DNA from: a bacterium | GTDB taxonomy: Bacteria; Caldisericota; Caldisericia; UBA6126 | Direction: 5' to 3' | Assembly (NCBI GenBank): GCA_021372585.1 | Contig: JAJFUD010000077.1 | Coordinates: 1-36,992, forward strand | Length of the DNA stretch: 36,992 nucleotides | Part shown: in pieces, positions 19,292-23,650 of the stretch | Position numbering within the stretch: the stretch's first letter is position 1 | How the letters are laid out: each line of letters begins with the position of its first letter | The notes under the pieces: model-generated | Told to the model about the DNA's origin: nothing | Database searches by the model: none | What the model saw: only the letters and a program-made list of their open reading frames with translations | Made by a program: the position numbers and the translations under genes

Positions 19292-22237
19292 ATGAAAAGA
19301 GGGTTTTTTACGGTTTTAAGTATTTTGGTTGCTTTGGTAATTAGTTTTGGTTTTTTAACTTTTTATTCAAAGCCTGTTTCTGCCATCAATAATTTTAAGA
19401 TGGATGTTGTACCAAGAAAAGTAGGCGTCACTGCCACTTACAAATTTAAATTTTCGATCGAAAAAACAGTCAAAGTGCATGAATGGATAAAACTATGGTG
19501 GCCGAAAGAGTGTACATTGCCGCCATTACCAGAAGATGAACACAAGAGAAAAGAAGAACTCAAAAGAATTATTGAATCGATGAGTATCGGTCTCTCTCCC
19601 TGTTCTTCCTGCCAAGGTTTACCAATTATTGATTATGAGGAAAATTCTTTAAAGTTTAACTCCCATATTGAGTTGGATCCTTCCAAGGAAGGGTACAGAG
19701 ATATTACTGTTACAGTACCGGACATCGTGGGTATCTATAATCCTCAGCAACCTGGAAAGTACCAGTGTAAAGTAGCTACTCAACCGGAGCCCACCGCTGC
19801 GAAATCCGAACTTTTTGAAATTGTAGTCAGTAAGATCGGAGAACCTGAGGGTGCTCCGACTGTTACAGTGTTGCCGTCCACCTATAAATCTGTGGCCAAC
19901 TATAAAATTGGTTATAATGTCGGTTTGGGTGGTTTCCTGAAGGAAGTTGTCGGACTTTTAATGATCCGTTTCCCGGAAGGTACCGTTATGACCAAAACGG
20001 ATATTCCAACGAATGCAATTATCGTGAATGGCACACCTTTAGTGGCAAAACCATCGGTTTCGAAAAGAGAAAAAGCCGGATACCAATTAACCTTTAATAC
20101 CCCGATCATGATTCCGGACAGCGGAAGAGTAGAGATCGAAATTACTGATCGAGCCGGGGTGGTGAATCCTGCTAAGCCAGGCGCCTATAAGTTAGAAGTA
20201 GCGACTTCTGCTGATAAAGAATACGTTGCTTCCAATGAATACATCATTGAAAAGGGAGGCGCATTACTTAAAGTCATTCCACCAAAGGTCAATCGGAAGG
20301 CAGAGTATGCTTTTGCTTTTATTCTGGAAGAGAACACAACGCTGAATACTGGTGACCGTGTATTCGTGAAATTTCCCGAAGGGACTACTATTCCTAAAAC
20401 TTTGGACAAAGCGAATATCCTGATCAATGATACTCCGGTTTCTAATGTTAGTGTTAAAGACCTTGAAATATCAATTTATTCGCCGTTAAGTTTAAAAGCA
20501 GGCGATACCGCTGATATTAAATTCAGCGTGGATAATGGCATTACGAATACAGCAAAAGCGGGCGATATCAAGCTTGGTTATAAACTTCAGAGTGCTGGTG
20601 AATATCTCTATACTACCGCTGTGAATTTGACTGAATCCAAACTTGAACTAAAAGAAGTGGTCATTAATCCGAAAAATGCAAACTCCATCGCGTCATACCA
20701 ATTACCTTTAATCCTTGGTGACAATGGTGCTTTGAAAGACAATGATTTTATTGCGATTCAATTTCCTGAAACCACTAAGATTCCAGATTCTATCCAGACC
20801 AGCTCTATCAAAATAAACAACAGCACCCCTTCCAAAGTTTCCTCAAACGACACTATTCTGAAGATTTTCACCTCTCAAGCTCTTTCTGCAGGGCAAGAGG
20901 TGAATGTGATTATTGAAAAGACGGCCGGCATCAGAAATCCATCAGTTTCTAAAATTGATTATACACTTTCTGTATTTACTAGCCAGGAAGCTGATCAGGT
21001 CGTTTCAGAACCTTTCGAAATTACCCCTCCTCTACCGGAAACTACTGTTCAGATTACCGGAGGAAAGCAGATCCGGGATGATTGGTATGTAGAACCTCCT
21101 CTGGTGGGTTTTACCTGTTCTAATCCTGAAGCTACGGTATATGTTTATTGGGATAATAAAGTAGATCAAGTTATCAAATATAGCGGCATACCGCAACCAT
21201 TAGACCTCGGGCAGTTTGAATCCAAGCTCTATTACTGGGCCGAAGATTCTTTCGGTGTCGAAGAGACAAAGATGGTAATCGTAAAATTAGATACGGTAGG
21301 TCCTGAGATTGTGATTGAAAATCCTACTGAACCGAAAATCTTAACCACCAAGAATATTTTTGAGATTCAAGGCAGAACAACCCAGATCAAGACAGTTCTG
21401 TTCGGTGAGGATGTACTTCAATACGATAAAATTGTTTTTATCAACGGTACAAAAGTAAATGTCAATGATGCAGACGGTACTTTCTCCAAGAATGTAGATT
21501 TAAAAGCCGGAGAAAATACTATTACCATACGAGCAGAAGACATAGCCGGTAATTTTGTCGTGAAAGAGTATATGATTATTTCCGATAGTGTCGCGCCTTC
21601 AATTGAAATTACAAAACCAGCGCTTAATTCGGTAGTGCTGGACAGAAATACAAAAATAGAAGGAAAAACAGATGACCCAGCCGCTTCTATCACTGTCAAT
21701 GGGGAAATTGCCTATGTGGAAAGCGATGGCACTTTCAGTTTTGATTTGAATTTAGAAAAGGTTGGCTTACAGAATATCACTATAGAAGCTGTCGATCCAA
21801 TTGGAAACATCACCAGGAAAGAGACTACTTTTTGGTTTGGCTACACCATTATCCTTCAAATCGGCAATAAAACCGGAACGACGAACGGTGTTGAAAAAAC
21901 AATGAACGTCGCTCCTTTCATTCAGAATTCAAAGACATTGGTGCCCTTCCGATTTATCGGCGAACAACTCGTCGCAGAAATCGGTTTTACATCAGACCCT
22001 AAGACGAAATTGGTTAAAAATGTCACCTATAAATTGGGTATGACGAATATCCAACTGACGATTAATTCAAAGATTGCGTTAGTGAATGGTAAACAAGTAA
22101 CGCTGGATGTACCTGCCCAAATTGTCAAAGGCAGCACTGTTGTGCCTTTACGATTTGTTACAGAAGCCTTAGGCTGTAAAGTGGACTGGGAAAGCAAAGC
22201 CCAGATCATTACCATTACATTTCCTGCAATTGAATAG
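19292..22237 (+). CDS. Large secreted surface-type protein with repeats and copper-amine-oxidase-N-like C-terminus
   Basis: A 981-residue exported protein. The signal peptide is about 1-31 (cleavage near VSA-IN). Four tandem beta-rich repeats of about 125-150 residues follow (about 33-175, 189-316, 325-448, 453-577), each with a motif like VGIYNPQQPGKY or AGVVNPAKPGAY near its end. Next come Ig-like or OmpL47-like segments (about 578-845, including VAPSIEITKPALNSVV). The C-terminus (about 850-981) is a copper-amine-oxidase-N-like domain: LVPFRFIGEQL and VVPLRFVTEALGCKVDWE. Despite the name, that domain is a common wall or surface module in Gram-positive-type and deep-branching bacteria. AGGGGGA precedes the ATG. 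Likely surface layer or adhesive role (inferred). Confidence 0.85.
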   Translation: MKRGFFTVLSILVALVISFGFLTFYSKPVSAINNFKMDVVPRKVGVTATYKFKFSIEKTVKVHEWIKLWWPKECTLPPLPEDEHKRKEELKRIIESMSIGLSPCSSCQGLPIIDYEENSLKFNSHIELDPSKEGYRDITVTVPDIVGIYNPQQPGKYQCKVATQPEPTAAKSELFEIVVSKIGEPEGAPTVTVLPSTYKSVANYKIGYNVGLGGFLKEVVGLLMIRFPEGTVMTKTDIPTNAIIVNGTPLVAKPSVSKREKAGYQLTFNTPIMIPDSGRVEIEITDRAGVVNPAKPGAYKLEVATSADKEYVASNEYIIEKGGALLKVIPPKVNRKAEYAFAFILEENTTLNTGDRVFVKFPEGTTIPKTLDKANILINDTPVSNVSVKDLEISIYSPLSLKAGDTADIKFSVDNGITNTAKAGDIKLGYKLQSAGEYLYTTAVNLTESKLELKEVVINPKNANSIASYQLPLILGDNGALKDNDFIAIQFPETTKIPDSIQTSSIKINNSTPSKVSSNDTILKIFTSQALSAGQEVNVIIEKTAGIRNPSVSKIDYTLSVFTSQEADQVVSEPFEITPPLPETTVQITGGKQIRDDWYVEPPLVGFTCSNPEATVYVYWDNKVDQVIKYSGIPQPLDLGQFESKLYYWAEDSFGVEETKMVIVKLDTVGPEIVIENPTEPKILTTKNIFEIQGRTTQIKTVLFGEDVLQYDKIVFINGTKVNVNDADGTFSKNVDLKAGENTITIRAEDIAGNFVVKEYMIISDSVAPSIEITKPALNSVVLDRNTKIEGKTDDPAASITVNGEIAYVESDGTFSFDLNLEKVGLQNITIEAVDPIGNITRKETTFWFGYTIILQIGNKTGTTNGVEKTMNVAPFIQNSKTLVPFRFIGEQLVAEIGFTSDPKTKLVKNVTYKLGMTNIQLTINSKIALVNGKQVTLDVPAQIVKGSTVVPLRFVTEALGCKVDWESKAQIITITFPAIE

Positions 22238-22264: not shown

Positions 22265-23650
22265 ATGCGTGTTAATTTTAGAAAGTCGAATAAAAAGCAT
22301 TGCTTAGCTTCTATACTGGCAATTAGTATGGTCTTCCTCTTTCTTTTCCAAGTTGACACAAAAAAGGTAGAGGCAGATGAACCTTTTACTCCATCTCCTG
22401 CCCCATTAATTATTGAACAATTTACTGGGGGAACATGCGGGTATTGTCCTTATGCATCAGCTTATATACAAATAGCGAAACTATCGAAATTTAAAAATGA
22501 AGAATTTGTGACAGCAGCCTACCATAGAGGTGATGCAATGGCAAATTCTGATACGCAAGGCAGAGAAATTTTTTATGGAATTACAGGGATTCCTGCCTTG
22601 GTTTTCAATGGCTCTCAATCTTTAGTTGGATACTCACAATCAGGCTATGGTGATAAGCTCATGAGCTTTATATCTAATGCGCTCTCATCAAGAAAAAACA
22701 TTGCTGATATCTACATTCAGGGTTATAAAGATCCAAAACAGTTTGATATAAAAGTTCGTGCCAATGAATCTTTTGGTAAACGAAAAATTAACCTGGTTGC
22801 TATTATTATGGAGGATTGGGTAAATATTGAAACACCGAATACAGAAGCGTTTCATAGAAATGTTGTGCGGAATATGCCATATGGATCCACAGGTCGGGGA
22901 ATTATATTAAAAGAAGGTGAAATCTTTTCTGAAACCAGAAAATTTGCTCTTCAAACAAAAGCATGGGATCAAGTGGCTGTACTCGCTTTCTTGCAGGATA
23001 TGGATTCGAAAGAAATAGTTGGTAGTGGGTATTTTAAATATAATCCAAAAAAACCAGCTGTTTATTTTTGGGGGAAAGAGCCGTCTTATGAAAACGTACC
23101 TGTTACCACATCGAAAAACAAAGTTAAATTTAATGTTACCGGTGCCTCTGATCTGAAAGAAGTATTTGTAAAAGTCCGTCTGGATAACAGTATTTATCAA
23201 TTAGACAACGTAGAGCTAATCGACGCAGAAATTTCAGAAGAAATGCAAAAAATTGCAACGATAGAAGTAAAGCAGAGTATTGGTGAAGTACGGGTAAAAT
23301 TCAGTGAACCGGTGAACGGCGACGCCACAATTTTTATTGCTACCCTACGCTTCAAAAAGAAAGCGGATAATATTCCTTTTCAAATTATGCGTTTTGGTGC
23401 GATTAATTCAGAAAACCAGACCGCTCCCTTTGAGCTGATCGATTTAAGGCTGCTGTTAGGGTTTAAAGTATCGGAGAATCCTTATGATCTTGATGCCAAC
23501 CTTTCAATAGATGAGGGCGACGTGGCGGTTTTAATGCAGAAATTTGGTTCTACCAAAAATGATAGGGATTTTAACAAAAAATGTGATTTCAATAAGGATA
23601 GTCGTATAGATATTGAGGATCTGGCAGAGCTTATACATAATTTGGAATAA
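22265..23650 (+). CDS. Secreted thioredoxin-fold protein with cohesin-like region and dockerin
   Basis: A 461-residue exported protein, 27 nt after the surface protein gene, with GGAGGTGG before the ATG. The signal peptide is about 1-37. A thioredoxin-like domain (about 45-150) has the redox motif EQFTGGTCGYCPYA (C58, C61) and a cis-Pro loop GITGIPALVFNG (P110). A middle beta-rich region (about 155-255) follows. Residues about 268-395 look like a cohesin-type sandwich (VYFWGKEPSY at its start and FIATLRFKKKADN near its end). Residues about 408-461 are a dockerin-like pair of calcium loops: DLDANLSIDEGDV and DFNKDSRIDIEDLAELI. Possible role: extracytoplasmic disulphide exchange tethered to a surface complex (inferred). 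Confidence 0.85.
   Translation: MRVNFRKSNKKHCLASILAISMVFLFLFQVDTKKVEADEPFTPSPAPLIIEQFTGGTCGYCPYASAYIQIAKLSKFKNEEFVTAAYHRGDAMANSDTQGREIFYGITGIPALVFNGSQSLVGYSQSGYGDKLMSFISNALSSRKNIADIYIQGYKDPKQFDIKVRANESFGKRKINLVAIIMEDWVNIETPNTEAFHRNVVRNMPYGSTGRGIILKEGEIFSETRKFALQTKAWDQVAVLAFLQDMDSKEIVGSGYFKYNPKKPAVYFWGKEPSYENVPVTTSKNKVKFNVTGASDLKEVFVKVRLDNSIYQLDNVELIDAEISEEMQKIATIEVKQSIGEVRVKFSEPVNGDATIFIATLRFKKKADNIPFQIMRFGAINSENQTAPFELIDLRLLLGFKVSENPYDLDANLSIDEGDVAVLMQKFGSTKNDRDFNKKCDFNKDSRIDIEDLAELIHNLE

Follow-up and report, generated by a model that had tools for sequence, protein, structure and literature searches.

A Caldisericia thioredoxin-like protein with a cohesin-dockerin tail suggests a redox component of a protease-rich surface complex

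In the window, by which we mean the whole stretch of DNA analysed here (36,992 nucleotides of a Caldisericia MAG), we found a gene whose product combines an Omp28/thioredoxin-like domain with a cohesin and a dockerin. Since the same kind of tail is found mainly on the secreted proteases of this class, our data suggest a redox protein that is plugged into a protease-rich cell-surface complex. We lean towards the view, with somewhat better than even confidence, that it is a Sec-secreted thiol-disulfide protein in which a redox cargo is carried on an exchangeable cohesin-dockerin address tag within a protease-rich docking system. The tails themselves are a class-wide device, borne mostly by subtilases, and the protein is not an isolated oddity.

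Results

Domain organisation of the protein

The gene starts 27 nt past the stop codon of a large surface protein. Its parts and the upstream gene are as follows.

22265..23650, forward strand: gene of the 461-residue protein, ATG start; signal peptide, Omp28/thioredoxin-like domain, cohesin and dockerin (open reading frame and profile searches)
22265..22375, forward strand: probable Sec signal peptide, residues 1-37, with basic start, hydrophobic core and putative cleavage between VEA and DE (read from the sequence)
22385..23029, forward strand: Omp28/thioredoxin-like domain, residues 41-255 (NCBIfam and Pfam)
22436..22447, forward strand: CGYC active-site-type motif, residues 58-61 (sequence)
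22592..22594, forward strand: P110 of the cis-Pro-type loop (GIP, residues 108-110; sequence)
23120..23443, forward strand: divergent cohesin, residues 286-393 (clean class HMM, hhalign and tail profile; without a Pfam match)
23483..23644, forward strand: type I dockerin, residues 407-460 (Pfam and class HMM)
23486..23521, forward strand: dockerin calcium loop 1, D408-D419 (sequence)
23585..23620, forward strand: dockerin calcium loop 2, D441-D452, with C440 just before it (sequence)
19292..22237, forward strand: upstream surface protein of 981 residues, with repeats, two Glucodextran_B/Ig-like domains and a C-terminal Cu_amine_oxidN1 stalk (profile searches)

The sequence-only reading had proposed an extracytoplasmic redox domain followed by a cohesin and a dockerin, and profile searches bear out this order, including the middle region that it had labelled tentatively. 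Reading of the putative signal-peptide cleavage site reveals no lipobox cysteine. The closest named relative is an 89%-identical orthologue, truncated by its contig, from 'Caldisericia bacterium isolate STF2_161'. AlphaFold2 models of the full protein and of the tail, based on an alignment of only the window protein and L035, were poor (pLDDT 36.8 and 48.3, respectively), so that the nine-strand jelly roll of a cohesin is a prediction for this protein.

The dockerin and the divergent cohesin

The two calcium loops noticed at the C-terminus belong to a genuine dockerin match: Pfam Dockerin_1 (PF00404) scored 27.1 bits, above its cut-off of 22.9, and a class HMM built without the family of this protein gave 57.4 bits. 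Both 12-residue loops are intact at the well-known ligand positions of dockerins, with acidic or Asn ligands (D408-D410-N412-S414-D416-D419 and D441-N443-D445-R447-D449-D452). The cysteine directly before loop 2 (C440, 23582-23584) recurs in many dockerins of the class, where it is usually the sole Cys of the dockerin and is not matched by a second one in the cohesin. We therefore rejected C440 as a redox switch; it probably occupies a small buried position.

None of the five family members matches Cohesin (PF00963) in Pfam, and sensitive profiles do find a cohesin in the middle region. A clean 22-seed class HMM, from which the family was excluded, matched residues 286-393 with an E-value of 9e-7. 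When the mid-region alignment of the five members was compared with 20 class cohesins by hhalign, the probability was 96% and the score 56.7, whereas one reversed and 30 column-shuffled decoys reached 20.2 at most. Moreover, an 18-row profile of the cohesin-dockerin tail, again without the family, gave an E-value of 8.6e-26 over positions 29-205 of its 208. The domain has to be regarded as divergent, because a 103-seed cohesin HMM scored only 18.5 bits and barely exceeded shuffled sequences (maximum 16.6). Single-sequence phmmer searches with the middle region found matches only within its own family. As judged from these profile comparisons, the middle region is a divergent cohesin, homologous to the Pfam-confirmed cohesins of the class.

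A class-wide tail

The sequence-only reading depended on further modules of this kind in the genome, and both the own genome and most genomes of the class carry dockerins and cohesins. Dockerins occur in at least 46 of 49 Caldisericia genomes and in at least 2 of 14 control genomes; for cohesins the numbers are 40 of 49 and 2 of 14, one of the two above the cut-off. The tail profile matched at least 71 of the 243 genomes searched, including at least 45 of the 49 Caldisericia genomes. As it also matches genomes outside the class, the tail is not unique to Caldisericia. The own genome has 13 dockerin matches (9 above cut-off) and 6 cohesin matches (3 above cut-off), and its dockerins are carried by S8 subtilases, M28 peptidases, a PQQ-propeller protein and the protein described here, as well as, below cut-off, by a periplasmic binding protein.

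In all, 162 3'-complete ORFs bore a cohesin, a dockerin or both: 63 combine cohesin and dockerin, 52 combine cohesin and a Cu_amine_oxidN1 stalk, 46 have a dockerin alone and one has a dockerin and a stalk, while a cohesin with neither was never found. These numbers describe sampled loci chosen for a cohesin, dockerin or redox-domain match, not whole genomes, and near-identical genomes (e.g. G021/G025) were counted separately. The HMMs behind the counts were made from class sequences and then iterated a single time, with the family of this protein included; the clean tests are hhalign, the 22-seed HMM and the tail profile without the family. Three of the 46 ORFs with a dockerin alone are members of this family in which the HMM detected no cohesin. 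Dockerins end 3-20 residues and stalks 3-35 residues from the C-terminus.

The class has two cohesin lineages, one in tails and one on stalks. In a tree of 104 cohesins, the state beside a dockerin or beside a stalk requires 2 changes compared with 35 in shuffles, although three branches are long and the alignment is short, which leaves the details unsure. For dockerins, a tree required 12 changes between architectures versus 31.6 in shuffles and has no clean split. Hence, it tells nothing about partner specificity and gives no support to a second dockerin class for hierarchical assembly, which we had considered.

The tail may also be paired with itself. The cohesin would then be a built-in support or cap for the dockerin, forming one rigid, calcium-stabilised unit that offers no socket to other proteins, comparable to the X module that accompanies some cellulosomal dockerins. 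In 53 of 54 ORFs a short stretch of steady length, 4-25 residues, separates the two domains, and the tail cohesins are not only a separate lineage but also more divergent than those on stalks (mean pairwise identity 17% versus 21%). In addition, the tail profile matches chains such as 3kcp and 2b59, which we take to be cellulosomal X-dockerins. However, the tail cohesins of the class match the solved cohesins 2xdh, 3l8q and 1anu as well and not X modules only, and several of them are called Cohesin above cut-off in Pfam. We consider self-pairing somewhat unlikely.

The thioredoxin-like domain

The CGYC motif and the cis-Pro loop from which a thioredoxin fold had been proposed are in place at residues 58-61 and 108-110, and Omp28/thioredoxin profiles match significantly. 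In NCBIfam these were Omp28_seleno (8.9e-14, residues 48-254), lipoprot_Omp28 (3.5e-8) and an MJ0307-family thioredoxin (7.9e-8), and in Pfam Omp28 (3.7e-5). Since all of these scores lie below the curated cut-offs, we regard the protein as a relative of Omp28 and not as a member or equivalog of a named family. The thioredoxin-type loop around Pro110 is read as the cis-Pro loop, and its proline is present in all five family members aligned. CGYC is found in the orthologue of genome G001, CGAC in those of G003 and G004, and the Pro loop is kept.

Whether the domain acts in redox chemistry can be questioned, given that two paralogues (L046 and L049) retain the domain and the same tail without a CxxC motif. 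Because of these paralogues, redox chemistry appears dispensable for the persistence of the domain, and the domain might serve for structure or binding only. We think this unlikely for the protein itself, as the CGYC or CGAC motif and the Pro loop are preserved in it and in the three orthologues.

Two sister redox proteins on contigs C53 and C63 of the own genome end in a stalk and not in a dockerin. We infer that secreted proteins are held at the cell either by a stalk or by a dockerin, the present protein being the dockerin-tagged redox member.

Several further Omp28-like or thioredoxin-like sequences were seen. Four Omp28_seleno matches in 729-aa frames, each with exactly one in-frame TGA, may be selenoproteins (G013:C11:19066-19704, G017:C149:7698-8324, G021:C41:85248-85988 and G025:C10:95402-96049). 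In the own genome, an Omp28-like match with one in-frame TAA (G000:C38:677-1468) reflects either a broken gene or an error of the assembly. Another thioredoxin-like protein of this genome (L196:3375-4544, G000:C54) is cut by the contig end, and its last part weakly resembles the cohesin region described above.

Stalk proteins as candidate receptors

The class cohesin profile found nine cohesins in the own genome, six of them on stalk proteins (contigs C52, C73, C15, C85, C50 and C75). From these sequence matches, the receptor of the dockerin is more likely to be one of these six proteins, which are encoded at other sites in the genome, than the product of the adjacent gene. Across the sampled loci, a stalk gene lies on the same strand within 150 bp of 32 of the 106 dockerin ORFs; it bears a cohesin in 28 cases, in 21 genomes. 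The protein and its orthologues in G003 and G004 are among the four dockerin ORFs whose stalk neighbour has no cohesin. With 106 matches to Cu_amine_oxidN1 (PF07833) in 1.88 Mb, stalk-type surface proteins have expanded very strongly in the own genome, considering its small size.

A tail with one socket and one plug could in principle give rise to linear head-to-tail chains with a stalk-anchored cohesin at their end and no need for a multi-cohesin scaffoldin. This would suit the 63 sampled ORFs with both modules and the 52 stalk proteins with a socket only, which are often encoded next to each other. Nevertheless, tail and stalk cohesins are of different lineages, so that a dockerin that fits one may not fit the other, and the dockerins do not form a clean second class. 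Such chaining is therefore distinctly unlikely in our view. Its fuller form, in which scaffold-free chains of secreted Caldisericia proteases and the thioredoxin-like protein end on a stalk cohesin of the second lineage and the redox member opens disulfides for digestion by the proteases, we regard as highly doubtful.

The upstream gene

It had also been proposed that the protein and its neighbour form one surface assembly. The genetic side of this proposal stands: the order hutI, stalk protein, protein of interest (and rpoB) recurs in G001, G003 and G004, the G001 contig stopping inside the gene, and dockerin genes elsewhere are often found beside stalk genes. The physical side fared less well, as neither the HMM nor windowed hhalign detected a cohesin in the 981-residue stalk protein, in which no dockerin was found either, and the related genome G002 has the stalk protein (48% identical) directly before rpoB and no copy of our gene at this locus. 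A CxxC pair within the stalk protein's first repeat (C104/C107) could have served as a redox partner, but it is kept in 10 of 10 sequences read, namely four orthologues, that of the window included, and six further homologues, among them the one of G002; we rejected it as a dedicated partner. Docking on the adjacent stalk protein in a dedicated two-protein assembly is thus very improbable, despite the 27 nt spacing and the retained gene order.

Discussion

We favour the reading of the tail as an exchangeable address tag. The protein would be exported by the Sec pathway, with the thioredoxin/Omp28 domain as cargo. With calcium, its dockerin would bind to the cohesin of one of the six surface proteins (cohesin, Ig-like domains, Cu_amine_oxidN1), for which the stalk is the presumed cell anchor. 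The same receptors would be shared with dockerin-tagged subtilases and M28 peptidases, and the redox domain would thereby be placed beside these enzymes. There it may reduce or rearrange disulfides of substrates or of proteins of the complex and so act as a putative helper of the proteases. A CcdA/DsbD-like membrane carrier might supply the redox domain; a DsbD_TM gene is located on contig C102 of the own genome. All of these steps are predicted from sequence comparison.

If this is true, a plug-and-socket surface system for breaking down proteins extends across a little-studied class, follows a strict rule for the tail and has a redox enzyme among its cargoes. It would broaden the known use of cohesin-dockerin assembly and would provide a small set of cloneable pairs with which to ask if complexes form without a multi-cohesin scaffoldin. 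In our literature search, no title or abstract opening reported a cohesin-dockerin system of Caldisericia or joined dockerin, cohesin and Caldisericum.

As in the clostridial cellulosome, cohesins are combined with calcium-loop dockerins, and we propose surface-anchored receptors here. In contrast to the cellulosome, the cargo consists mostly of peptidases. No glycoside hydrolase was found among 18 proteins of the own genome that were scanned, and no multi-cohesin scaffoldin of the cellulosome type was noticed among the listed class matches, which have at most two cohesins per ORF. Cohesin-dockerin proteins outside cellulosomes were reportedly described by Peer et al. in 2009. Among solved structures, the Caldisericia stalk-cohesin profile matches 2xdh best (E 5.1e-10); we take this entry to be the cohesin of Archaeoglobus fulgidus, archaeal and distant in sequence.

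In ANME archaea, cohesins and dockerins are reported on varied secreted proteins other than cellulases, including a dockerin on a periplasmic binding protein, and chains have up to five cohesins (PMC9012536). The below cut-off dockerin on the periplasmic binding protein of contig C1 is similar to this. Chains of up to five cohesins were not seen in the class, two (G003:C248) being the most per ORF among the listed class matches. In Ca. Stygibacter (Cloacimonadota), peptidases of family S8 and others are described as carrying a dockerin at the C-terminus; a polypeptide-degrading peptidase/glycosidase complex was proposed, and a scaffoldin of 3,755 residues has tandem cohesins (PMC8542988). Caldisericia dockerins are likewise found on S8 and other peptidases, whereas the sampled loci have stalk proteins with a single cohesin in place of such a scaffoldin.

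Unlike in the non-cellulosomal and ANME systems, all 3'-complete cohesin chains in the sampled Caldisericia loci terminate with a dockerin or with a stalk of the Cu_amine_oxidN1 type, and the cargo includes a thioredoxin-like protein. Like Omp28-related proteins (Omp28_seleno, lipoprot_Omp28), this cargo protein has a CxxC domain of the thioredoxin type with an Omp28-like part after it, but it scores far under their curated cut-offs and adds a cohesin-dockerin tail.
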